From contig CAMDRY010000028.1 of the NCBI GenBank assembly GCA_945906975.1, positions 1 through 16,751 of the forward strand: DNA of 16,751 nt, given 5' to 3'. The notes beneath the pieces were generated by a model. That model was not told the DNA's origin. It saw only the letters and a list, made by a program, of their open reading frames with translations, and did no database searches. Shown here piece after piece: positions 1,346 to 16,526 of the stretch; the stretch's first letter is position 1, and each line of letters begins with the position of its first letter. Position numbers and translations under genes: made by a program. Source of the stretch: Bordetella parapertussis. Lineage in GTDB: Bacteria; Pseudomonadota; Gammaproteobacteria; Burkholderiales; SG8-39.

Positions 1346-1765
1346 TTACTTGCGGCGCAGCTTTCGGATAGCGGCGATTTGCGCTGCCATCATGGCAAAC
1401 TCGGACTGCGCGCGCGCCATATCAAGATCGCCCTTCGCGTTGGCCATGGCTTCCTGCGCGGCCTTCTGCGCTTCAAGTGCCTTGGCTTCGTCGAGGTCAT
1501 GGCCGCGAATTGCCGTGTCGGCCAGCACAGTGACAAGCTTGGGTTGAACTTCTAACACGCCGCCCGCGACAAAAATCAGCACCTCTTCGCTGCCATCGGC
1601 GGGCTTGATGCGCACCGCGCCCGGCTTGATGCGGGTAATGAGCGGCGTGTGCCTGGGATAAATGCCCAACTCACCAGCCTCCCCGGGCAGAGCCACAAAC
1701 TCGGCCTCACCGGCGAAGATTTGCTCTTCGGCGCTGACTACATCTACGTAAATCGTATGTGCCAT
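1346..1765 (-). CDS. atpC: ATP synthase F1 epsilon subunit
   Basis: The 139-residue protein has the normal epsilon length and layout: an N-terminal beta-sandwich (about residues 1-87, starting [17 protein letters not shown] and containing [17 protein letters not shown]), then a C-terminal helical hairpin rich in Ala, Glu and Lys. Epsilon is part of the central stalk, couples rotor to catalytic head and inhibits ATP hydrolysis through its C-terminal helices. The start ATG is preceded by AGGA about four bases upstream. It is the last gene of the operon and is followed directly by the terminator. The 86-bp gap to atpD is low-complexity, with two copies of CCCATTT and several CATTC-like words, and holds no gene. 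Confidence 0.98.
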
Positions 1766-1851
1766 TGGATCCTAGTGAATGCTGAATGGTGTGTAGGGAG
1801 TGGTGGAAAAACCGCCGGGATTCTTACGATTCACCCTTTCCCATTTCCCAT

Positions 1852-3240
<1,389 letters not shown>

Positions 3241-3276
3241 CTAACTAGACTTACGATTCGAATTCGGTTGGTTCGC

Positions 3277-4140
3277 TTAAACGGCAGCAGCGCCGGCGAC
3301 AATCTCTGAGAGTTCTTTGGTAATGGCTGCCTGGCGCGTCTTGTTGTAAATCAGGGTAAGTTCGTCGATCACGCTGCCGGCGTTGTCGCTGGCGGCTTTC
3401 ATCGCCACCATGCGCGCCGACTGCTCGGACGCCATGTTCTCGGCGACGCCCGGAAAAATCAGCGACTCAACATAGCGCGTCAGCACCTGGTCAAGAACCG
3501 CTTTGGCGTCCGGTTCGTAGATGTAATCCCACGACCCCTGCGGCACACCAATCTTCTCGCCCGAGAGGGGCAGCAACTGCTCCATCACCGGTTCCTGCTT
3601 CATCGTATTGATAAACTTGGTGTAAAACACCATTAGACGGTCGAAGCGGTCATGGGTGTAACCGTCCAGCATGGTCTTGACGGCACCGATCATTTTTTCC
3701 ATGTTCGGCTTGTCGCCCATCTGGATCACATGCGACACGACGTTGGCGCCGAGGCGCTGCATGAAACCAAAGCCCTTGTTGCCAATCGCGCAAACTTCAA
3801 ACGTCTCCCCCTGCGACTCCCACTCTTTCATCTTGTTGAGTGTCATGCGCAGCACGTTGGTGTTGAGGCCGCCGCACAAGCCCTTGTCGGTTGTGATGAC
3901 GATGATGCCAACCCTATTCACCGTGTCACGCTCAATCAGGAAGGGATGGCGGTACTCGGGGTTGGCATGGCTGATGTGCGCCGCCACGTTGCGGATTTTT
4001 TCGGCGTACGGCCGCGCGGCGCGCATGCGATCTTGCGCCTTTCTCATTTTCGAGGCCGCAACCATTTCCATCGCCTTGGTGATCTTGCGCGTGTTCTGCA
4101 CGCTCTTGATCTTGGTGCGTATTTCTTTTGAACCGGCCAT
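3277..4140 (-). CDS. atpG: ATP synthase F1 gamma subunit
   Basis: The 287-residue protein begins [20 protein letters not shown] and continues with [15 protein letters not shown]. That is the N-terminal coiled-coil helix of gamma, which rotates inside the alpha3beta3 head. The DKGLCGGLN motif of the Rossmann-like middle domain is present. The C-terminal helix carries [14 protein letters not shown] and the closing [19 protein letters not shown] signature. Length matches the family. A modest AAGG lies eight bases before the ATG. The gene sits between atpA and atpD as in the standard F1 order. Confidence 0.98.
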
Positions 4141-4171
4141 TTCTGCGCCTTGTCAGTTAGCTTTACGCCAC

Positions 4172-4189
4172 CCCCCTCAAAACAGGGGG
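4172..4189 (-). other. Hairpin in the atpA-atpG intergenic gap
   Basis: CCCCCT and AGGGGG form a perfect 6-bp stem around a 6-base loop within the 59-bp gap between the atpA stop and the atpG start. No T-run follows on the - strand, so it is not an intrinsic terminator. It could stabilise processed ends of the operon mRNA or set the relative expression of alpha (three copies per complex) and gamma (one copy). That role is inference only. Confidence 0.35.
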
Positions 4190-4199
4190 CAGGGTTGGG

Positions 4200-5744
<1,545 letters not shown>

Positions 5745-5784
5745 GGTAGGTTCCTTGAGGATTCCTGATTCGTTTCTTACGGCG

Positions 5785-6318
5785 CTAGTTGTTCAGCAGC
5801 CCGGTGGTCATTGCGGCCAGCTTGCCGCGCACCGAGCCGTCAATCACTTCATCTCCGACCACGACACGCACGCCGCCGATAAGATCGCGATCTTCACCGA
5901 CCTGCGGTTTGATCTTGCGCTTGAAGCGCTTTTCCAGATCGGCCACCAGCGCGGACAGTTGCGCGGCGTCCAGCGGCATGGCGCTGGTGATCACCGCATC
6001 CACCACGCCTTCGCGCGCGTGCTTTAGGGTCTCGAACTGTTCGCGAATCGTAGGCAGCAAAGCAAGACGGCCGTTTTCGATCAGGATGTGGACAAAATTC
6101 TGCGCATCCTTGGACAGGTCGCCGGCGACCGAAGCAATCAGACCGTACACCTGCTCGGACGAGAACTTCGGATTGCTGATGGCATCCTGCATGTCGCGAT
6201 CAGCCGCAACGGCTGCGAGCCGTCCCAGCACATCGGACCATGCACCCAGCGCATTCGCCTTGTCCGCCAGCGCAAAAACCGCCTCGGCGTAAGGGCGCGC
6301 GATTGTGGTGACTTCCAT
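5785..6318 (-). CDS. atpH: ATP synthase F1 delta subunit
   Basis: The 177-residue protein starts [18 protein letters not shown], the usual first helix of delta, and has the conserved C-terminal block [33 protein letters not shown]. Delta links the top of the alpha3beta3 head to the peripheral stalk b dimer. The start is five bases after the atpF stop, so the two genes are probably translationally coupled. An AGGA three bases from the ATG and a further AGGAG inside the end of atpF can both serve as ribosome sites. Confidence 0.97.
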
Positions 6319-6323
6319 TGGTC

Positions 6324-6794
6324 CTAGAGCTCCTGCTTGAGTTGATTCAGCAGGTCGGCGTGCACTTGCGCATTGACTTCCTTGCGCAGGATCTTCTCCG
6401 CGCCCGCCACGGCAAGCGATGCAACCTGCTCGCGAAGCTGGGTCTTTGCCGATTGCACTTCCTGCTGGATCTGCGCTTGGGCGGCGGCGATCATGCGATC
6501 GCCCTCGGCCTTGGCGTTGGCCTTGGCTTCCTCGACCATCTGGCTTGCGCGCTTTTCGCCCGAGGCAAGAATCTCCTGCGAACGCTCACGGGCATCACGA
6601 ATGATCACCTCGCTTTGCTTGTTCGCCTCGGCGTAAGCGGACTTGCCGCGCTCGGCTTCCGCCAAACCGTCCGCAATCTGCTTCTGGCGTGCTTCTATCG
6701 CGTTGAGCAAAGGCGGCCAAACGAATTTGGCCGAGAACAGGATGAACGCAAAAAATGCGATCCCCTGCGCGAACATTGTCACTGTTAGGTTCAT
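6324..6794 (-). CDS. atpF: ATP synthase F0 subunit b
   Basis: The 156-residue protein has one N-terminal membrane helix (about residues 5-28, with [23 protein letters not shown]) followed by a long charged helix rich in Ala, Glu, Lys and Gln. This is the elongated dimer that forms the peripheral stator stalk. Length matches E. coli b at 156 residues. GGGGAA upstream of the ATG is a plausible ribosome site. The gene lies 27 bp downstream of atpE and nearly abuts atpH. Confidence 0.97.
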
Positions 6795-6821
6795 GGTACG
6801 TTCCCCGTTACGGGAGCTGCG

Positions 6822-7115
<294 letters not shown>

Positions 7116-7153
7116 TCAAATCAAAACGATTGGGGTAATTGAAGCTAAGCGAG

Positions 7154-7975
7154 TTAATGCGATTCGTGCGCCATCGCGATGTATACGATGGTGAGCATCA
7201 TGAAAATGTAAGCCTGCAACGCGACGATAAGAATGTGAAAGATCGCCCATCCCAGACCCAGCAATACAGAGGCGCCGAAGCCGACGAAATAGTCGGCACT
7301 CCAGGAGCTGTTGGCCGCCCACATCCACAGCAGCAGGAAGATAATCTCGCCGGCGTACATGTTGCCGAACAACCGCAGCGCATGCGACAGCGGTTTGGAT
7401 ATGTACTCGACCATGTTGAACAGGAAATTAAACACCCAGAGCAGCGGATTGCCGCCAAAAGGCGCGCAGAAGAGCTCGTGGATGAAACCGCCCACTCCCT
7501 TGACCTTGATGCTGTAGTAGATCATCAGCAGCCAGACCGAAAGCGCCAGCGCAAAGGTCGTGTTCAGGTCGGCGGTCGGGACGATGCGAAAGCCGTGCTC
7601 GCTGATGTGGTGTGTGCCGGCAGCGATGATATCAACGGGCAGAAAGTCCATCGCGTTCATCAGCAGGACCCAGACAAACACCGTCATGGCCGCAGGCGCG
7701 ATAAAGGCGTGACGCTCGCCGTGAAAAATTCCCTTGACCTGGTCATCGACAAATTCAAAAAAGAGTTCGACGAAGGCTTGGCGTTTGTTGGGTACACCGG
7801 CAGTCGCGCCGCGCACGACCCACCAGAGGAAGCCGATGCCAATCACGCCGAGCAGCAACGACACTGCCAGCGAGTCAACGTTGATCATCCAGAACGCGCC
7901 CTCACCGACCTGCTTGGTGTCGAACGTGAGGTGGTGGCCTATATATTCGGAAGGGGTAAGCGTGCCTGATGCCAT
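7154..7975 (-). CDS. atpB: ATP synthase F0 subunit a
   Basis: The 273-residue protein has five or six hydrophobic membrane segments and forms the stator half-channels beside the c ring. The essential arginine is R201 in [35 protein letters not shown] just before it and the C-terminal [18 protein letters not shown] helix are family signatures. Length and features match the E. coli a subunit. No good ribosome-binding site precedes the ATG at 7975. With the atpI stop only 28 bp upstream, translation may partly depend on atpI. Confidence 0.97.
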
Positions 7976-8493: not shown

Positions 8494-9366
8494 TTAACCG
8501 GCGTATTGGCTGGCGATCCGGATGTCCGCCTTGCCAACCGACTCAATTTCACAGGAAAGCACATCTCCGGGTTTGACCGGGCCGACGCCCTCGGGCGTGC
8601 CGGTGAAAATGATGTCGCCGGGGTGGAGCGTATAGAAGCTCGATGCGTATTCGATCAACTTATGCACGTCGTAGACCAGTTTGTCGGTGTTCGAGCTCTG
8701 GCGCTGCTCCCCATTGACCTTGATCGACAGCTTGAGCTTGTTCGGATTCGGCACCTCATCTTTGGTGACAATCCAGGGGCCGCATACGGCGTAGGTATCC
8801 ACCGACTTCCTGAAGCTTGGCAACTCCGGCCCGCGGATGGTCATGTCCAGCCCCATGGCATAACCGGCGACATAATCGAGGGCGTTTTCCTTTTTCACTT
8901 TATTGCAGGTCTTGCCGATGATGACCGCCAGCTCGATTTCGTGGTCGTTGCGGCGCTCGGGCCAGCGCAGCTGGATTTCCTCGCCGAAACCGATCAGCGC
9001 GCTGTTGGCCTTGAGGAACAGGCCCCAGTCCCAGATGTTCTTGTTCTTGATCTCGCGGCCGTGGGCGATGCCCTGGTCTTTTTCCGCCTCGTCAATGTGC
9101 GCATGGTAGTTGATGGGGGCGTTGACGATTTTGGTCGGATTGGCCACCGGCGATTTGAACCTGACCGCACTGACCGGCTTTTTGTCCGCGCCTGCCTCGA
9201 GCTCGCGCACGCGCGCGATGATCTTGTCGAGATTGGCAATAAGCAAGTCACCCTGGGGCAGCGGCCAGCGCACAGCGGGCAGCAAGTCCAACGCGGCACT
9301 CACATCCAACACCTGATCGCCCTTGATCAGGCCCAGTCGGTTGTCATCGTATCGGCAAAGTTTCAT
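8494..9366 (-). CDS. Fumarylacetoacetate hydrolase (FAH) family protein
   Basis: The 290-residue protein has an N-terminal cap of about 75 residues and a C-terminal FAH fold. Metal ligands are visible as the paired glutamates E143 and E145 (in HEIELAVIIGK) and D174 (GLDMTIRG). The NYHAH segment (86-90), FRKSVDTYAVCGPW and the GDIIFTGTPEGVG loop are also present. Members hydrolyse or isomerise ring-opened aromatic intermediates such as fumarylpyruvate, acylpyruvates or 5-carboxymethyl-2-oxo-hept-3-ene-dioate, or act as ureidoglycolate lyases. Near a dioxygenase cluster, cleavage of a ring-fission product is the likeliest role; the exact substrate is not readable. No strong ribosome site precedes the ATG. 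The gene is divergent from the second Bug receptor across 244 bp with a GGCGATCGCC palindrome but no convincing promoter. Confidence 0.9.
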   Translation of the reverse strand: MKLCRYDDNRLGLIKGDQVLDVSAALDLLPAVRWPLPQGDLLIANLDKIIARVRELEAGADKKPVSAVRFKSPVANPTKIVNAPINYHAHIDEAEKDQGIAHGREIKNKNIWDWGLFLKANSALIGFGEEIQLRWPERRNDHEIELAVIIGKTCNKVKKENALDYVAGYAMGLDMTIRGPELPSFRKSVDTYAVCGPWIVTKDEVPNPNKLKLSIKVNGEQRQSSNTDKLVYDVHKLIEYASSFYTLHPGDIIFTGTPEGVGPVKPGDVLSCEIESVGKADIRIASQYAG

Positions 9367-9610
9367 TTCAGTGGCTCACGGTTAAAAAGGAGGCGGCAGA
9401 ACGGCTGCAAGCATAGTCGAATTTGCGCCGAAAAACCTCGCCCGAATGCTTAAACCTGCGCAACGCGGGCATCACACGGCGATCGCCCTCACAAAGCGCA
9501 AACGACCGCTAAAATACCCTGACTTGGCTTGGGGCGCTCCCTTGCGCGTCTTTGCCAAGCACACTGACCTGCGGGCGCTCAGACCCGGCAAAAACTGGAG
9601 GGACAACACC

Positions 9611-10594
9611 ATGACTCGTTTCCTGCGATTGATCACGGGCACCATGACCGCTATGGGAATACTCCTGTGCCCCGCAGCTTCGGTCGCCCAGGCCGATTAC
9701 CCCAACAAACCGATCCGGTTGATCATCGGTTTTCCGCCCGGCGGCTCGACCGATATCGTCGGCCGCATCGTGGCGATGAAGCTGAGCGAGCGCCTCGGGC
9801 AACAGGTGGTCGTGGACAACCGCGGCGGCGCCGGAGGCACCATCGGTGCGGAACTAGCCTCAAAAGCAACGCCCGACGGCTATACCCTCACGATAGGCAC
9901 CACCAGCACGCATGCCGTGGCCGCGGGTGCGTATTCGAAGCTGCCCTATGACCCGATCAAGAATTTCGCCCCGGTGTCATTGGTGGCAATCACACCCTAC
10001 CTGCTGGTGGTCAACCCGCAAGTGCAGGCGAACTCGCTCGCCGATCTGGTCAGCCTTGCGAAAAGTCAGCCGGGCAAACTCAACTATGCCTCGGCCGGCA
10101 ACGGCTCGACCACCCACCTTGCGATGGAAATGCTCAAGGACGCGGCCAAGATCAACCTCGTGCACATACCCTATAAGGGCAACGGCCCCGCGGATATCGC
10201 GATTCTTGGCGGCGAGGTGCAAGCGGTATTCGGTTCTATGCCCGCGCTACTGCAAAACACCAAGGCCGGAAAATTGCGCGCCCTGGCTGTGGGCACAGCG
10301 CGCCGCTCTCCGGCGCTGCCCGATGTGCCGACAGTGGCCGAGCTTGGCTATCCGGGTTTCGAGGCCGCGCTTTGGCTGGGCGTACTCGCGCCGGCCGGAA
10401 CACCGCAGCCAATCATCGACCGCCTCAATCGCGAACTGACAAGCATTGCCGCGACGCCCGATTTCAGGTCGCTGATGGACAAGAATGGCGCCGAGCCTAT
10501 CAGCAACACCCCGGAGCAGTTCGCCACCATGATCCGCGCAGAAGTCGAGCGTTACACCAAGGTGGTAAAGGCCATCGGCGTAAAACTGGACTGA
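9611..10594 (+). CDS. Bug/TctC-family periplasmic substrate-binding protein
   Basis: From the ATG at 9611 this is a 327-residue protein with a signal peptide (MTRFLRL, a hydrophobic stretch, likely cleavage near residues 26-28 before DYPNKPIRL). The mature part has FPPGGSTDIVGRIVA, RGGAGGTIGAELA, ATPDGYTLTIG, LNYASAGNGSTTHLAME and HIPYKGNGPA, all Bug-family signatures. A GGAGGG eight bases upstream fixes the start; the reading frame stays open to 9446 but that extension is not signal-peptide-like. It is clearly paralogous to the Bug gene at 233-1198 (both end in a V-K-A-x-G-x-K-L-D tail), yet the ligand-contact loops differ, so a different substrate is likely. It stands between the FAH gene and the dioxygenase operon and may bind the pathway substrate. 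Confidence 0.93.
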   Translation: MTRFLRLITGTMTAMGILLCPAASVAQADYPNKPIRLIIGFPPGGSTDIVGRIVAMKLSERLGQQVVVDNRGGAGGTIGAELASKATPDGYTLTIGTTSTHAVAAGAYSKLPYDPIKNFAPVSLVAITPYLLVVNPQVQANSLADLVSLAKSQPGKLNYASAGNGSTTHLAMEMLKDAAKINLVHIPYKGNGPADIAILGGEVQAVFGSMPALLQNTKAGKLRALAVGTARRSPALPDVPTVAELGYPGFEAALWLGVLAPAGTPQPIIDRLNRELTSIAATPDFRSLMDKNGAEPISNTPEQFATMIRAEVERYTKVVKAIGVKLD

Positions 10595-10770: not shown

Positions 10771-11892
10771 CTAAGCCGCTTTTTGCCGGTTGGTCTCGAA
10801 CCCGCTCTCGGTGCCGAGCACCGCGGCCGGATGCTTGAGGTCTTCCTGCCAGAGCAGCGACTCCATGAAAATATTGAGTGGCTGATCCTGCACCGTCAAC
10901 TCATAGACATAGTCATCGTAGGAGGCGTGGTTGTGAACCGCCCAACCGGGCGCCGACAGCATCAGGTCGCCGGCCTTCCATTCGTAGCGGTTACCGGCAA
11001 CCACGCTATAGCCCTGGCCGGAGAAATAGTAGTTAATCGCGGCTGAAACATGGCGGTGCGGCCGATCGACGATTTTCGGCGGACGGATGGTCATGGTGGC
11101 AAAAAAGTTGGGCGTGATGCCATTACAACGCCCGCTGACCGGGTTGTAATACATGTACAGACGGCGGCCGATGTAGTCATTGCCCAGCGCCTCAAGCTTG
11201 TCGAGTTCTTTCTTGACGTCGCGCCAGGGGAAGTACAAGGGATTGTCGTTCACCACCTGCGGATTGATCAGCACCTCGTAGGGCATCAACATGCCGCCCT
11301 CGTTGCCGATGGGGAACATGCCGTAAGGGCTTTGCCTGCGCGGATCAGCCGGCTCGGTCTTTTTTTCAACGGCGGCGATTTGCGCCGGCGGTTCTTCGTC
11401 TGCGACATAGACCTGCATGTGCTGCAGCAGCGACGCATTGGAATAAGTCAGGCGAACCTGCAATTCCTTGCTGTCATTGACATGCGAATAGGTGTTGTAG
11501 GACGGGTGGTTCCACACATCGTATTGCTGAAATTCAATACGCTTGCCACCCACCATGGTGTGACCGGCGCCGCCAATGCAGAAATTCACCTCGGTGGCGT
11601 TATGACGGAACGGCGCGCTTTTCTCGCCCGGCTTCAGAACCGACAGGCGCACCTGTATGCCCGGTGCCATGCCCGGCGCGTAGTCCTTGGAACTCGGATG
11701 CACGATCAGCGATTCGCGGCGACCATTGCCCGGCAAGGCCGAGTCGGCCAGGCGCTGCACTTCGGCGTCAATTTCTTCCTTGGTCACGACGATGGGCGCC
11801 CACAAGTCGTTTTCTGTGGCGCGCGGTTTGCCGGTGAAGTCGATAAATTTGCCCTTGCTGTTGGCAAAATCGATGCGGTAATCGTTACTCAT
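10771..11892 (-). CDS. Gentisate 1,2-dioxygenase-like bicupin ring-cleavage dioxygenase
   Basis: The 373-residue protein contains two cupin domains (about 75-165 and 260-345), the length and layout of gentisate/salicylate-type ring-cleavage dioxygenases. The C-terminal cupin has a complete metal set: H279 and H281 in PHRHVSAAINYYF, and H320 in GWAVHNHAS. The N-terminal cupin keeps only H97 in PFRHNATEVNF, and the histidine expected near its end appears replaced (NTYSHVND). Classical gentisate dioxygenases carry iron in the N-terminal cupin, so the active site may be in the other domain here. The likely reaction is oxygen-dependent cleavage of a hydroxylated aromatic acid; the substrate is not established. 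AGGAG six bases upstream supports the ATG at 11892. It is the last gene of the Rieske operon, 99 bp after the cyclodeaminase-like gene. Confidence 0.8.
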   Translation of the reverse strand: MSNDYRIDFANSKGKFIDFTGKPRATENDLWAPIVVTKEEIDAEVQRLADSALPGNGRRESLIVHPSSKDYAPGMAPGIQVRLSVLKPGEKSAPFRHNATEVNFCIGGAGHTMVGGKRIEFQQYDVWNHPSYNTYSHVNDSKELQVRLTYSNASLLQHMQVYVADEEPPAQIAAVEKKTEPADPRRQSPYGMFPIGNEGGMLMPYEVLINPQVVNDNPLYFPWRDVKKELDKLEALGNDYIGRRLYMYYNPVSGRCNGITPNFFATMTIRPPKIVDRPHRHVSAAINYYFSGQGYSVVAGNRYEWKAGDLMLSAPGWAVHNHASYDDYVYELTVQDQPLNIFMESLLWQEDLKHPAAVLGTESGFETNRQKAA

Positions 11893-11991: not shown

Positions 11992-12987
11992 TCAGACCGC
12001 CGTCTTCGCCTTGTTGGGCGCGAGGCGGGGTTTGGCTTTTTTCGGTTGCAGAATACTGCGGCCGACGTCCCGGGCGTGGGCGCGCTTGACCAGTTCAACA
12101 CCCAAGGCGAGATCGGAGATGCCCATGCCCATCGCCTTGAACAAGGTGATGTCATCCATCGGCCTGCGTCGGCGCCCGGATGCGATGAGCGTGGCAAGCG
12201 TGGGCACCGCGTCCCATCCGGCCTTGTCGTACTGGGTCATGAACTCGCGCGACAATTGCCGCACGCCGGCAAGATTGTCCACCGCCACGGCGGTGACGCG
12301 CGCAAACACATCCTGGGTGAACTCCTCGCGGTCGGGCGCAATCGCACCCACGGCGTTGAGATGGGTGCCCTCGTCCAGCATGGCTGCGCTGAGGAAGGGT
12401 GTCGTGGCGCGCGACACCAGGGTGACGATTTGCGCGCCCTTGCAGGCCGCTTCGGTCGAGACCGCTTCCACAACTTCGATCCCAAACTCCTCGCGCACCT
12501 TGGCGGCGAAGGCGGCGCGTTTTTCCGCAGTGGGGCTGAAAACCTGCAAACGTTCGATAGGCCGCACGGCCAGCATGGTTCCAACCTGCGATAAAGCCTG
12601 CTTGCCCGTGCCGATGAGGCCCATGACCTTCGCCGCAGGATCGGCCAGCCAGTTGGCGGCGACGCCGGAAATGCCGCCGGTGCGCATATTGCCCAAGGCG
12701 AAGGCCTCAATCACCGCCACAAGGGCGCCGTTTTGGGCGTCCCAGAGCAACAGCAACGGGCAGGTGCCCCCCTCAGTGTGCGCCCAGGTTTTTGTACCCA
12801 CCAGACCGTCAAGCCGCGCACCGATGGCATGCAGGTTGCTCTTGCCATATTGCATCAGCGTCTTGCTCATGTTCTGGGCGTCGCCTTTGGCCTCGGCGCG
12901 CAGCGCAGACTCCAGCGCGCCGATGGCCTCGCCAAGATCCATCAACCCGACCACATCGGCTTCGGTAATCCAAAGGGGATCGCTCAT
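11992..12987 (-). CDS. Ornithine cyclodeaminase / mu-crystallin family NAD(P)-dependent protein
   Basis: From the ATG at 12987 this is a 331-residue protein. The dinucleotide fold carries VMGLIGTGKQA (122-131). Family residues include K66 (VGTKTW) and R102 (LGNMRTGG). True ornithine cyclodeaminases have a catalytic Asp in an NAVGGD context; here the stretch reads NAVGAIAPDREEF with Ile at that position. This resembles mu-crystallin, ketimine reductase or alanine dehydrogenase-type members. It may reduce or deaminate an imine/amino acid formed in the pathway; the substrate is unknown. The start codon overlaps the ferredoxin stop as ATGA, so the genes are translationally coupled. The frame extends further upstream to 13170, but that extension only shadows the ferredoxin gene. 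The C-terminus is an unusual lysine-rich tail. Confidence 0.87.
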   Translation of the reverse strand: MSDPLWITEADVVGLMDLGEAIGALESALRAEAKGDAQNMSKTLMQYGKSNLHAIGARLDGLVGTKTWAHTEGGTCPLLLLWDAQNGALVAVIEAFALGNMRTGGISGVAANWLADPAAKVMGLIGTGKQALSQVGTMLAVRPIERLQVFSPTAEKRAAFAAKVREEFGIEVVEAVSTEAACKGAQIVTLVSRATTPFLSAAMLDEGTHLNAVGAIAPDREEFTQDVFARVTAVAVDNLAGVRQLSREFMTQYDKAGWDAVPTLATLIASGRRRRPMDDITLFKAMGMGISDLALGVELVKRAHARDVGRSILQPKKAKPRLAPNKAKTAV

Positions 12988-13301
12988 TCTGCAGCCGCCA
13001 CAAACACGGCACCGTCCTCGATTTTGACCGGGTAAATTTTGATATCGACCCGGCAAGGCACACCCGCCGCCTTGCCCGTCGGAATGTGGAAGGTGCCCTG
13101 GTGCAGCGGACATTCGATGTATTCGCCGTCGACAAATCCATCGGCGAGGCTCGCCGCCCCATGGCTGCATGTGTCGTGTGTCGCGTAAATTTTGCCAGCC
13201 AGGTTATAAAGGCATACCGGCTCGGGGCCGGCATCCACCAGCAGGGTGCCATCTTCAGGCACATCGCCCACCGTGGCTACTTTGGTCCAGTTTTGCGTCA
13301 T
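12984..13301 (-). CDS. Rieske-type [2Fe-2S] ferredoxin of the oxygenase system
   Basis: The 105-residue protein has one Rieske cluster site: C45-x-H47 (DTCSHGAA) and C64-x2-H67 (ECPLHQGTF). Length matches the small ferredoxins (NagAb/NdoA class) that pass electrons from a reductase to the terminal oxygenase. It follows the beta subunit gene by 28 bp and overlaps the next gene by four bases, so it belongs to the same transcript. No clear Shine-Dalgarno sequence precedes the ATG. The ferredoxin reductase needed to reduce it is not in the window. Confidence 0.95.
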   Translation of the reverse strand: MTQNWTKVATVGDVPEDGTLLVDAGPEPVCLYNLAGKIYATHDTCSHGAASLADGFVDGEYIECPLHQGTFHIPTGKAAGVPCRVDIKIYPVKIEDGAVFVAAAE

Positions 13302-13329: not shown

Positions 13330-13830
13330 TCAAAGTGGATAGATCAGGCTGTTGGGAATCAGCAGTGTATCGAATACGCACAGCTTTTCACGAAAGCGCA
13401 GCTTGTCGCCGACCACCACGAGCTTGTCCTGATACTGACCGGCATTGAACACCTTGGTAGTTTCGTCGTTCAGCGTCTCGAGCGCGAGGTAATTGGCGCG
13501 CACCGACAGCTCGCCGTCCTTCCAGCCAAGGATGCGGATGCCCGTCACCATGCGGCGCATGTAGCGCGGCGCGTACATCATGGTCTTGCGGATGCCAACG
13601 ATCCGGTCAAGCAGCCCCGCCCGGCCTTCGGAACGCCAGGTGGCCAGCGGCAGGCCGCGCTCGAAATTCTCGCGCGGAATAATTTTATAGAGGCAGTCTT
13701 CGGTGAAAAAACCGGGCCAGTCCTCGAACCGGTCTTCATCCAGGCAGCCGGCGTACTCGGCGTAGACATCTTCGAGCTCGAGGCGCAGGTCGCGCGCGCT
13801 CATGTTCAGATAAGGTTCAGCGGCAGCCAT
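13330..13830 (-). CDS. Aromatic-ring-hydroxylating dioxygenase beta subunit (NagH-like)
   Basis: From the ATG at 13830 this is a 166-residue protein of the small-subunit family (SnoaL-like fold) that forms the structural base of alpha3beta3 Rieske oxygenases. Typical features are LEDVYAEYAGCLDEDRFEDWPGFFTEDCLYKIIPREN near the N-terminus, and AGQYQDKLVV and LRFREKLCVFDTLLIPNSLIYPL at the C-terminus. AAGGAG nine bases upstream supports this start rather than the ATG at 13866, which has no ribosome site. The gene follows the alpha subunit by 39 bp. It resembles salicylate 5-hydroxylase small subunits in length and motifs. Confidence 0.93.
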   Translation of the reverse strand: MAAAEPYLNMSARDLRLELEDVYAEYAGCLDEDRFEDWPGFFTEDCLYKIIPRENFERGLPLATWRSEGRAGLLDRIVGIRKTMMYAPRYMRRMVTGIRILGWKDGELSVRANYLALETLNDETTKVFNAGQYQDKLVVVGDKLRFREKLCVFDTLLIPNSLIYPL

Positions 13831-13869
13831 GTCAGAGAGCTCCTTGCGCAGAACAGCGCATCGCACCGG

Positions 13870-15105
13870 TCATAGATCCATGACCTTGCGGTAATAGTCG
13901 TAAAAGGACCGGATCGCACACTCGGTCACCATGTGGGGTTCGTCATGCCAGTCGCGCCCGCCCATCTCCATCACGCCCTCCGCGCCGGGCGACGGGGCTA
14001 TACCCTGCTGCGAATATTTCATGACCTCGCTGTCGTCGGCGGACACGAACCCTGCAGGGCCCATCAGATTGGCCTGACGCAGCCGGCGCTTTTTCATTTC
14101 CTCGTCGTCGTCGGCATAACCAAAAAAAGTCCACGCCAGCTCAAACTCCGCGACGCCGCGCGTCACCAACTGGCGCATCGCCAGCGTGTTGGACTGCTGC
14201 TGGATGATGAGATTGGGCCACAGCGTGGTCATCGCCACGGTGTATTCCGGAAACTCGCGCATCGGCTGCAACATCGTCGTGTCATTGAGCTTGAAGTCCT
14301 CCTTGAAAGACTTCATGTCGGCAAGCGCTTCAGTCTTGGCCTGCTCGCCCTTCCAGGAAATCAGCGCGCCGTGGCGGCCGGTGGGATCCATCTGCACCTT
14401 CGAAGGGGAGTCGGCGCGAAAGAGCCCAAAGCTCACCAGGAATACATGCAGCAGGCTGGCGTGATACGGATCCTTGATGTTCTCGAACATCAGTTTCCAG
14501 TTAGCCGGGATGAGCTGGCGCGAATACCCCAGCACCTCAAGCTTGCGGCCGTTGAAAATGCGGTCATAAAGCGCAAGCATGGACGTGCCAAGGTATGCCT
14601 CGAAGGGCTCAATGTCCTCGGCAAAGGACGCGAACACCGCGCCGTTACGCACCGTGACCTTGAGCTTGCGCAAGCCGTGGTTCTTCGGGTCGAAATCGTC
14701 AGGCATGCCGCCCTGCTTTTTCACGCCGCGCCGAAACGGCACGCCGATCAGGTCGCCCTTCAGGTTATAGGTCCACTGGTGGTAGGGGCACATGAACTCG
14801 GGGGTGTTGCCAAGATGCTTCTGGCAGAACTGCACGCCGCGGTGGGCGCAGCGGTTCTCAAACACATTGACGGCACCGTCTTCATCGCGCGTGACCACCA
14901 CCGGCTTGTCGCCGATAAAGGTGCGCTTATAGTCGCCCGGATTCGGGATCTCGGCTTCCAGGGCCACATAAGCCCAGCTCGTGCCGCAAAAAATGCGCTC
15001 TTGTTCGCGTTTGTAGATCTCCGGATCCGAGTAAGCCCAATAGGGCACGCGGGAAAGCCCTCCCTCCGGCCATTGATAACCGGGAAAAGCTGGTTTGTCG
15101 CCCAT
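13870..15105 (-). CDS. Rieske aromatic-ring-hydroxylating dioxygenase alpha subunit, salicylate 5-hydroxylase (NagG)-like
   Basis: From the ATG at 15105 (AGGAGG eight bases upstream) this is a 411-residue catalytic subunit. The Rieske site is C86-x-H88 and C106-x2-H109 (ENRCAHRG, MCPYHQW). The mononuclear iron site is visible as D212, H215 and H220 in ENIKDPYHASLLH, with a carboxylate at D357/D358 in AGFVSADDSEV; D212 is the bridging Asp between the two centres. Blocks such as ALEAEIPNPGDYKRTFIG, LKGDLIGVPFRRGVK, MKKRRLRQANLMGPAGF and HMVTE resemble NagG, which hydroxylates salicylate to gentisate. The related anthranilate dioxygenase AndAc is an alternative. The frame reaches 15201, but that extension lies in the promoter region and lacks a ribosome site. 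It is the first gene of the five-gene operon. Confidence 0.92.
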   Translation of the reverse strand: MGDKPAFPGYQWPEGGLSRVPYWAYSDPEIYKREQERIFCGTSWAYVALEAEIPNPGDYKRTFIGDKPVVVTRDEDGAVNVFENRCAHRGVQFCQKHLGNTPEFMCPYHQWTYNLKGDLIGVPFRRGVKKQGGMPDDFDPKNHGLRKLKVTVRNGAVFASFAEDIEPFEAYLGTSMLALYDRIFNGRKLEVLGYSRQLIPANWKLMFENIKDPYHASLLHVFLVSFGLFRADSPSKVQMDPTGRHGALISWKGEQAKTEALADMKSFKEDFKLNDTTMLQPMREFPEYTVAMTTLWPNLIIQQQSNTLAMRQLVTRGVAEFELAWTFFGYADDDEEMKKRRLRQANLMGPAGFVSADDSEVMKYSQQGIAPSPGAEGVMEMGGRDWHDEPHMVTECAIRSFYDYYRKVMDL

Positions 15106-15127
15106 CGCGTTCTCCTCCTGCACCTGC

Positions 15128-15158
15128 GTTGTATAAAACAACTGCGCGCAAAATTCAA
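15128..15158 (-). promoter_or_regulatory. Candidate promoter of the Rieske operon with a small palindrome
   Basis: On the - strand TTGAAT (15158 to 15153) is separated by 17 bp from TATACA (15135 to 15130), each matching four of six consensus bases. Transcription would begin near 15123, about 18 bases before the alpha subunit ATG. The -10 box is overlapped by GTTGT-N5-ACAAC (15128-15142). A better -35-like TTGACA (15197 to 15192) has only ATCGCA at the right distance. The modest match suggests an activator-dependent promoter. Confidence 0.45.
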
Positions 15159-15203
15159 AGGCGCGGCCTGCGATGCTACGCTGCCGCGCAATGTCAATCA
15201 ATC

Positions 15204-15225
15204 TCGATTACCGAATCGATATAAT
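15204..15225 (+). promoter_or_regulatory. Perfect TATAAT box with an adjoining palindromic operator, regulator promoter
   Basis: TCGATT-ACCG-AATCGA (15204-15219) is a perfect inverted repeat ending directly at a perfect TATAAT (15220-15225). No good -35 lies at 17 bp; the closest, TGTCAA at 15192-15197, is 22 bp away. MerR-type regulators bind palindromes lying between -35 and -10 boxes, so this fits autoregulation by the downstream MerR-like fusion protein. The same site lies upstream of the divergent Rieske operon and could control both. This is inference from position and shape. Confidence 0.55.
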
Positions 15226-15251
15226 GCACCCTGAACCACCGCGCCACCACC

Positions 15252-16526
15252 ATGACCTTCCCGGCAAAACCTGAAATCCCACCCACCTCGGACTACGTCA
15301 CCGCGCCCGAGGCCATCGCCCTGCTGGGCATCAAACCGCAGACGCTTTACACCTACGTTAGCCGCGGCCTGATCCGCTCGGTCAATCAACCCCAGCGCAA
15401 GCAAAAGCTCTACTACCGCGAAGACATCGACAAGGTCAGGGCGCAGGGCGAGGCGCGCCAGGGCCAGGGCATGCCGGCGGCCACGGCGCTGCGTTGGGGT
15501 CATCCTGTCATCACTACCGCCGTCACTGAAATCACTCCGGAGGGCCCGCGCTATCGCGGCCGGCTCGCCCTGGACCTCGCGCGCCAGGGCTGCTCGTTCG
15601 AGGCCGCGGCCGAGTTGCTCTGGTCAGGCGTACTGCATCACGACCCGCTGGTCTGGGATTGCGAGCCGCTGCCGGCGAGCTTTGGCCGGGCCATGGATGG
15701 CGCCGCGCTGCAACCCACGCCCTTACCACTATTGCGCATCAATGCGCTCGCCACCTCGATGCTTGGCGCGGCCGAGGGCGCCGGCAGCGAAATCCGCCGC
15801 GGCACAACCATCCCCGCGGCACGGCAGCTGATCCAGACCCTGACTGGCTGCCTCGGTTATCTTGGTCAAAAACCGCGCTTTCGCATGCCGCCCCAATCGG
15901 CACCGATCGCCGCCACGGCCATGCACCTGCTCAATCCCAAGGCGGGGTCGGACAAGATCGCCGCCCTCAACGCCGCGCTGGTATTGTGCGCCGACCACGA
16001 ATTGTCTTCATCCACGTTCGCCGCACGGGTGGCAGCCTCCACCGGCGCCGAATTGCGCGCCTGCATCCTCGCCGCCATCGGCACCCACTCGGGCGCCTCC
16101 CTGGGCGGCGGTTGCGACCGCGCCGAGGACTTGTTGCGCACCACGCGCAGCCGTGCCGAGATGCGCCAGCGACTGGCCGCCCTGGAGCAATCGGGCTCGC
16201 GCGTTCCCGGCTTTAACCTGCCGGTCTACCCCAAGGGGGATCCGCGCGCGCGCCATCTGCTAACGATGGCGCAAGACTTTGCCAAGCGCGGCGAGCGCGC
16301 ACAACTCATTTACCAGTTCATCGAAGAAGCCGAAGGCATGCTGCATCTGCGCCCCAGCATAGAGGTCGGATTGGTGGCGCTTTGCGCCGCGCTGAACCTG
16401 CCCGAACGCAGCGCCGGTGCGCTCTGGGCCCTGGGGCGAACCGCCGGCTGGATCGCACATGTCATGGAGCAGCGACTGGCGGGTCATTTATTACGGCCAA
16501 GGGCGCGTTATGTCGCACCGGGATGA
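15252..16526 (+). CDS. DNA-binding (MerR/excisionase-type HTH) domain fused to a degenerate citrate synthase domain; putative regulator
   Basis: The 424-residue protein has an N-terminal winged-HTH of MerR/HTH_17 type (about 15-65: YVTAPEAIALLGIKPQTLYTY, then GLI and LYYREDIDKVR). A citrate-synthase-like domain of about 340 residues follows, recognisable from ADHELSSSTFAARVAAST (247-264), VYPKGDPRA (325-333) and GRTAGWIAHVMEQ (395-407). Compared with citrate synthases, PLHGGAN reads ASLGGGC (His to L284), FGHRVY reads FNLPVY (His to L323), and the late catalytic Asp is E371. H249, R332, R396 and R415, corresponding to substrate-carboxylate contacts, are retained. It therefore probably binds a carboxylate or acyl-CoA without catalysis and acts as a sensor-regulator. 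It is divergent from the Rieske operon. No Shine-Dalgarno sequence precedes the ATG, suggesting low expression. Confidence 0.85.
   Translation: MTFPAKPEIPPTSDYVTAPEAIALLGIKPQTLYTYVSRGLIRSVNQPQRKQKLYYREDIDKVRAQGEARQGQGMPAATALRWGHPVITTAVTEITPEGPRYRGRLALDLARQGCSFEAAAELLWSGVLHHDPLVWDCEPLPASFGRAMDGAALQPTPLPLLRINALATSMLGAAEGAGSEIRRGTTIPAARQLIQTLTGCLGYLGQKPRFRMPPQSAPIAATAMHLLNPKAGSDKIAALNAALVLCADHELSSSTFAARVAASTGAELRACILAAIGTHSGASLGGGCDRAEDLLRTTRSRAEMRQRLAALEQSGSRVPGFNLPVYPKGDPRARHLLTMAQDFAKRGERAQLIYQFIEEAEGMLHLRPSIEVGLVALCAALNLPERSAGALWALGRTAGWIAHVMEQRLAGHLLRPRARYVAPG

Follow-up and report, generated by a model that had tools for sequence, protein, structure and literature searches.

At positions 15252–16526 on the forward strand of the window, the 16,751-nucleotide stretch of DNA analysed here, we identified a gene for a 424-residue protein that joins a DNA-binding head to a citrate synthase (CS) fold. 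Its product is very probably a metabolite-sensing switch for the adjoining aromatic-compound operon. Judging from sequence comparisons, we favour, with a probability of roughly three in four, a one-component regulator in which the CS pocket has been reused as a carboxylate sensor and which would control its own gene as well as the divergent operon.

The assignment of this HTH-CS gene is based on the open reading frame and its translation, the Pfam domains HTH_17 and Citrate_synt, and an AlphaFold2 (AF2) model. The N-terminal domain (residues 15–62, positions 15294–15437, forward strand) is a MerR/excisionase-like winged helix, whose score of 29.3 passed the HTH_17 cut-off of 27 and whose score of 20 missed the MerR_1 cut-off of 21.6. 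It includes Thr34 (15351–15353), which the translation places within the segment TLYTYVSRG. The CS-fold domain follows (residues 82–417, positions 15495–16502, forward strand; Pfam, Foldseek and VIA-align), with a Citrate_synt match over the same residues at an E-value of 1.6e-51. These are the only two Pfam domains of the protein, and a PLP-binding aminotransferase domain is absent. The query carries the family signature, an HTH with TLY(T/A/S)YVSRG ahead of a CS domain, and the fusion of a MerR/excisionase-like HTH to a CS-like domain claimed in the initial annotation is confirmed. The query matched 20 NCBIfam CS-type models, scoring far under the cut-off every time. Structure prediction and superposition, named at the outset as a check, gave the same picture: the AF2 model (pLDDT 86.9, pTM 0.79, from a 98-row alignment) matches citrate and 2-methylcitrate synthases in Foldseek and VIA-align. 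The isolated HTH head was modelled with a pLDDT of 73, and a fold search with it returned no match at E < 0.001, the nearest solved folds being weak matches to SoxR, BldC, phage Xis and GlnR (E 0.04–0.1).

We aligned the query to E. coli GltA, numbered here without its initial methionine. His264, His305 and Asp362 are required in CS catalysis. In the query they are replaced by L284 (16101–16103), L323 (16218–16220) and E371 (16362–16364), respectively, all on the forward strand. The substrate-binding residues, on the other hand, are kept: H249 (15996–15998) corresponds to His229, R332 (16245–16247) to Arg314, R396 (16437–16439) to Arg387 and R415 (16494–16496) to Arg407, again on the forward strand. 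Both the claimed replacement of the two histidines by Leu and of the aspartate by Glu, and the claimed retention of the four binding residues, were thus borne out. Since His229 and the three carboxylate-holding arginines remain while the catalysts are lost, the pocket may bind a ligand without converting it.

We then compared the query with the best 120 of its 5,446 matches, a collection that includes ordinary citrate synthases. Most of these 120 homologues are full length and carry both Pfam domains, as in the query. Among the 121 sequences (query and best 120 of 5,446), the position of His264 is never occupied by His, that of His305 is His in 13 and that of Asp362 is Glu in 115, while the positions of Arg314, Arg387 and Arg407 are Arg in 121, 119 and 120, respectively.

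For a broader view of the family, we assembled the best 80 of 586 confirmed HTH-CS stretches in named genomes and six annotated plasmid loci, which together with the query gave 87 aligned proteins (the best-80-of-586 set). Proteins without His264 are referred to as dead and those that keep it as intact. At this position, 59 proteins have His, 27 another residue and one a gap; Arg is found at Arg314 in 87/87, at Arg387 in 85/87 and at Arg407 in 86/87. At His229, 79 proteins keep His and eight have Asn, the latter all belonging to the 27 dead proteins of the best-80-of-586 set (L031, L087, L084, L011, L014, L015, L017 and L018). This suggests that the ligand differs across the dead proteins, with a different one in these eight.

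A quick maximum-likelihood tree was built from 84 rows, comprising 83 HTH-CS proteins and GltA. Four loci with cut, partial or split genes (L016, L033, L040 and L083) were excluded from the tree and from the neighbour counts. One of them, in Acidovorax carolinensis P4 (L083:12028-13250), is annotated as two overlapping pieces and so is possibly a broken gene; directly upstream of it is an IS5 transposase. With sampling biased to relatives of the query, a short search and a single long-branch outgroup, the tree placed the 25 dead rows of the best-80-of-586 set in one clade (SH-aLRT 99) nested among the 58 intact rows. Going by their record titles, all 24 named rows of the dead clade are betaproteobacterial; intact forms are also present in some Burkholderiales (L036, L069 and L080; L095–L097).

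Within the tree set (best 80 of 586), the intact rows keep the enzyme site nearly completely (N232 and S234 in 57/58 each, H264 in 58/58, H305 in 57/58, D362 in 56/58 and F383 in 58/58). In the dead rows, N232 is replaced in 25/25, S234 in 20/25 and F383 in 18/25. The suggested check of whether the His/His/Asp losses are conserved across HTH-CS fusions gave a divided outcome: His264 and Asp362 are missing in all 25 dead rows, but His305 is still present in 20 of them. What marks the clade is therefore the absence of His264 together with Asp362; on the branch of the query, His305 disappeared as well. His264 gave way to seven different residues, and Asp362 to Glu in 14/25 and also to Ala, Phe, Val and Ser. 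No row departs from Arg at R314, R387 or R407 (25/25 dead and 58/58 intact).

A further search covered 150 genomes of the same order (E 1e-60, with no more than 11 candidates being scored in each); HTH-CS was found in eight genomes and not in the other 142. Of the 14 loci recovered, 11 lack His264 and three keep it, and three are exact repeats (L091 and L099 within L006, L098 within L004). Two genomes yielded four matches each, G001 (L090, L098, L100 and L102) and G116 (L091, L099, L101 and L103). Two proteins beyond the tree set are exceptions. L090, encoded in the L004 genome as a paralogue, has neither catalytic His but has the catalytic Asp, a mix of losses that differs from the dead rows used for the tree; in L099, Arg387 is replaced by Gln. 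A separate, full-scoring CS (445–478 bits) was present in 9/9 dead-clade genomes searched.

These residue patterns bear on two alternatives to a sensor. The CS fold could be a dimerisation scaffold only, the protein binding its operator while the old active site senses nothing. We consider this unlikely. In its favour are the catalytic positions, now varied and often hydrophobic, and the appearance of Asn at His229 in 8/27 dead proteins of the best-80-of-586 set. However, the substrate arginines are kept in 25/25 dead rows of that set and in 119–121 of the 121 sequences of the alignment with the best 120 of 5,446 homologues. In CS, one of the three substrate-site arginines is supplied by the partner subunit; such a trio would be needless in a pure scaffold, which argues against this explanation.

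Less probable still is that the protein has remained an enzyme, performing a CS-like Claisen condensation or lyase reaction with E371 as base, and binds DNA in addition, as a bifunctional trigger enzyme. The change from Asp to Glu retains an acid, and the dead rows of the best-80-of-586 set with Glu (14/25) or with His305 (20/25), as well as the Asp of L090, speak in its favour. So do relatives with the full His/His/Asp set and the same kind of operator, both of which had been missed in the initial annotation. The query, however, is without both histidines, and the variety of residues at His264 and Asp362 in the dead rows indicates that a replacement catalyst is not conserved.

Comparing 30 upstream regions by eye, we found a sequence shared near the HTH-CS start in several phyla, ATCAATCTTGAT-N6/7-ATCAAyrT, which consists of three alternating ATCAA/TTGAT half-sites. 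A two-block model of this sequence common to HTH-CS genes located the predicted operator of the window, AATCAATCTCGATT-ACCGA-ATCGATAT, at 15196–15222 on the forward strand, between the divergent HTH-CS and Rieske genes. It is the top site in the 16.7 kb window, with 26.1 bits against 13.4 for the runner-up. A TATAAT noted by eye at 15220–15225 (forward strand), a possible −10 element of the regulator's own promoter, overlaps the end of the operator. A promoter scan of 15050–15320 returned no promoter-like site, and a −35/−10 pair for the Rieske gene picked by eye (TTGAAT at 15158–15153 and TATACA at 15135–15130, minus strand) was not confirmed by it. The dyad GTTGTATAAAACAAC (15128–15142), also considered as an operator, was dropped, as it was not seen by eye in 29 other upstream regions.

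The two-block model exceeded 16 bits in 67/86 upstream regions of the best-80-of-586 set (L020, without an upstream region, is absent from this count), compared with 3/430 shuffles and 3/1141 other windows of the same loci. Among regions of this set that were unread when the consensus was written, 44/56 were above the threshold (intact 38/44, dead 6/10, unclassed 0/2). The 19 misses among the 86 regions (dead 7/24, intact 8/58, unclassed 4/4) were commoner in the dead than in the intact class, and of eight further non-repeat dead loci, three passed 15 bits. A strict operator pattern gave 24 matches in 16 whole genomes picked for HTH-CS, and the reversed pattern gave one. Twelve of the 24 lie directly upstream of an HTH-CS gene, in 11 of the 16 genomes, and in six of these 11 the HTH-CS-upstream match is the sole strict match. 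Five of the other 12 are near-copies of one word and probably represent conserved coding sequence. Another of these 12, in Polaromonas sp. YR568 (L088:7707-7729), is found upstream of a gene for a Peripla_BP_6 substrate-binding protein, far from HTH-CS; this is a possible remote target.

One base of the operator varies together with residue 34 of the HTH. In a covariation scan that was blind to the tested base and used a threshold of 15 bits, 70/86 sites of the best-80-of-586 set passed. Thr34 (TLY-x-YVSRG) was accompanied by C (TCGAT) in 13/13 passing sites of this set, while Ala or Ser34 was accompanied by T in 54/57, G in two, A in one and C in none. The association gives a Fisher value of 3.9e-14 with kinship ignored; on the tree, the residue and the base changed three times each, in step, which is too few changes for a kinship-aware, tree-based sign test to reach 0.05. 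Four of the 17 Thr34 rows in the best-80-of-586 set have no site above 15 bits, their best sub-threshold sites carrying C in L005, L030 and L087 and A in L031. The query combines Thr34 with TCGATT/ATCGA. Among the loci from the 150-genome search, 7/14 passed 15 bits and all seven follow the residue-34 rule, the single Thr34-C case among them being a repeat of L004.

The divergent operon starts with the alpha subunit of an AndAc-like Rieske oxygenase (13870–15105, minus strand; Pfam Rieske and Ring_hydroxyl_A). Its start was picked by eye at the ATG following an AG-rich stretch, and it scored 451.7 bits with the AndAc model, under the cut-off of 750. On the same strand follow the ring-hydroxylating oxygenase beta subunit (13330–13866; Pfam, NCBIfam), a Rieske ferredoxin (12984–13301; Pfam, NCBIfam), an ornithine cyclodeaminase/mu-crystallin (OCD) family protein (11992–12987; Pfam, start chosen by homology), a gentisate/5-aminosalicylate dioxygenase-like bicupin (10771–11892; Pfam, NCBIfam) and a fumarylacetoacetate-hydrolase (FAH) family protein (8494–9366; Pfam, NCBIfam). 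A TctC-type substrate-binding protein is encoded on the forward strand (9446–10594; Pfam), and together with a second one read by eye (233–1198) it flanks the region. A minus-strand run of ATP synthase genes, likewise read by eye (1346–7975), ends near the catabolic cluster. The AndAc-like oxygenase, ferredoxin, bicupin and FAH protein point to a salicylate- or anthranilate-like substrate that would be cleaved to a keto acid, and our leading guesses for the ligand are therefore the acid produced by ring cleavage and the substrate itself.

Neighbouring genes at the other loci were identified by homology to 41 reference proteins; greedy gene calling was dropped as too noisy in GC-rich DNA. Up to 4 kb upstream and on the opposite strand, intact loci of the best-80-of-586 set have a second CS in 41/58, prpB in 18/58 and either in 42/58, while a divergent CS or prpB within 4 kb was found in 0/25 dead loci. 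Within 8 kb, dead loci of this set have a Rieske oxygenase in 13/25, a substrate-binding protein in 20/25 and either in 22/25. Neither was detected within 8 kb in any of the 58 intact loci of the set, in a comparison whose reference proteins came from Burkholderiales loci, so that detection is favoured there, and in which several contigs are short. Leaving aside the window and four plasmid loci, the Rieske linkage amounts to 8/20 dead loci of the best-80-of-586 set. As background, nine dead-clade genomes (55.9 Mb) contain 55 Rieske alpha matches, 23 of them in a single genome, which corresponds to ~1 per Mb or overall about 1.6% per 16 kb. The linkage to substrate-binding proteins, counted with three reference proteins and hence more widely than PF03401 alone, is given less weight because of the high background of such genes, 5/9 dead-clade genomes having 40 to 110 or more PF03401 genes.

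Individual loci illustrate both kinds of neighbourhood. The closest named locus among the matches listed, L002, encodes an HTH-CS 65% identical to the query and has retained both the Rieske alpha gene (75% identical) and the beta gene (66%) of the window; it is a MAG contig labelled Bordetella parapertussis, a species label that we doubt. In a Paraburkholderia (L084), the gene of a dead HTH-CS that shares 39% identity with the query lies divergent to a cupin gene. This cupin and the bicupin of the window are 67% identical, and an OCD encoded further on matches that of the window at 56% identity. In Massilia sp. WG5 (L082:3172-13281), a dead HTH-CS is found by a Rieske oxygenase, a PDR/VanB reductase, a Gfo/Idh/MocA oxidoreductase and nadC, a cluster that we take to resemble phthalate degradation genes. 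At 17 loci, mostly of Xanthomonadaceae (L046, L049–L051, L053–L059, L065, L068, L072, L075, L076 and L081), an intact HTH-CS is divergent to prpB and CS/PrpC with the operator between them, which makes it a candidate for regulating the methylcitrate cycle. On plasmid At of Agrobacterium fabrum C58 (L085:6797-9173), a second citrate synthase gene adjoins an intact-type HTH-CS in head-to-head orientation, and an operator match lies directly upstream of the HTH-CS.

The neighbourhoods also speak to the idea that the protein forms mixed dimers with the ordinary citrate synthase of the cell and reports the state of that enzyme instead of a pathway metabolite. CS dimers share active sites, and a second CS adjoins intact HTH-CS genes in 41/58 cases of the best-80-of-586 set. 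No divergent CS neighbour was found within 4 kb of any of the 25 dead-clade genes of the set, however, and we regard this explanation as very improbable. Finally, a decaying citrate synthase duplicate with a chance HTH fusion can be dismissed with near certainty, since despite the degraded active site the 424-codon frame is open, most of the best 120 of 5,446 homologues are complete proteins that share both domains and show aligned replacements, and operator and HTH covary, a conservation that in sequence terms counts strongly against decay.

We thus return to the carboxylate-sensing regulator of the divergent operon, which the initial annotation had put forward, with fumarate, pyruvate-derived citrate or an acyl-CoA as candidate ligands that our data neither favour nor disfavour. 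It draws support from a clade that lost His264 and Asp362 throughout but keeps the arginines, from the conserved operator-like intergenic site and its covariation with residue 34, and from the repeated occurrence of Rieske-oxygenase, transporter and ring-cleavage genes near members of the dead clade. In the proposed mechanism, CS-fold subunits would dimerise as usual and offer two MerR/excisionase-like heads to the DNA. The two heads would bind the predicted operator between the regulator gene and the Rieske-oxygenase operon; we infer this DNA binding from the conservation of the operator and its covariation with the HTH. The pocket, devoid of catalytic residues, would hold a di- or tricarboxylate unconverted or, alternatively, an aromatic carboxylate or a ring-cleavage acid of the pathway. 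Binding of the ligand would shift the CS fold between open and closed forms and thereby alter how the heads are placed on the DNA. The operator overlaps the TATAAT ahead of the regulator's own gene, which makes autorepression probable, and, with the Rieske start codon ~90 bp downstream of it, its position would permit activation of the operon.

Several known systems resemble parts of this protein. With PrpC and citrate synthase (PF00285) it shares the fold and the substrate-arginine set, but His264, His305 and Asp362 are replaced and an HTH head is added. Its head is akin to the MerR/BldC/excisionase group by the Pfam HTH_17 match and, weakly, by the folds of SoxR, BldC, Xis and GlnR. MerR proteins combine a coiled coil with an effector domain, whereas the query has a large CS domain instead. 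Operators of the MerR family lie in long-spacer (19–20 bp) promoters; in the window, the scan of 15050–15320 recognised no promoter with which to compare them. ROK repressors such as NagC and Mlc derive from kinase-fold proteins and are, as proposed here for the query, an enzyme fold turned into an effector-binding repressor, with an unrelated fold and HTH. In MocR/GabR, a wHTH is fused to a PLP aminotransferase fold (PMC4944035), so that an HTH stands N-terminal to a whole metabolic-enzyme fold as in the query; both the HTH family and the enzyme fold are different, and the query has no PLP domain. Regulators made of an HTH and an enzyme fold are therefore a known kind, and a CS-based version was not found in the literature searched, which covered few subscription journals and yielded no description of an HTH-CS regulator. 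SCO5831 is a Streptomyces citrate synthase-like protein for which the accessible parts of two sources claim no regulator role (PMC9739823, PMC8981147). The HTH-CS architecture is already visible in Pfam assignments and in entries named, for example, 'citrate synthase family protein'. As the sources that name these proteins call them citrate synthase, it is probable that many regulators carry the annotation of a TCA-cycle enzyme.

For the family as a whole, we lean slightly towards a regulator family that spans phyla, in which the intact forms are trigger enzymes and a single loss in a betaproteobacterial clade gave rise to a free sensor with a changing HTH-operator code. If so, intact forms would bind their own operator, usually shared with a divergent CS or prpB-prpC, the sensor would have spread to aromatic and carboxylate catabolic operons, and in the code Thr34 would read C and Ala/Ser34 would read T. 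With the operator and the Thr/Ala34 rule, the regulon of a genome could be predicted and put directly to the test. The intact branch provides a candidate regulator of the methylcitrate (prpBC) operon in Xanthomonadaceae. The family would then offer a directional transition from enzyme to sensor, in which catalytic residues were lost and ligand-holding ones kept, with living relatives that retain the enzyme site.
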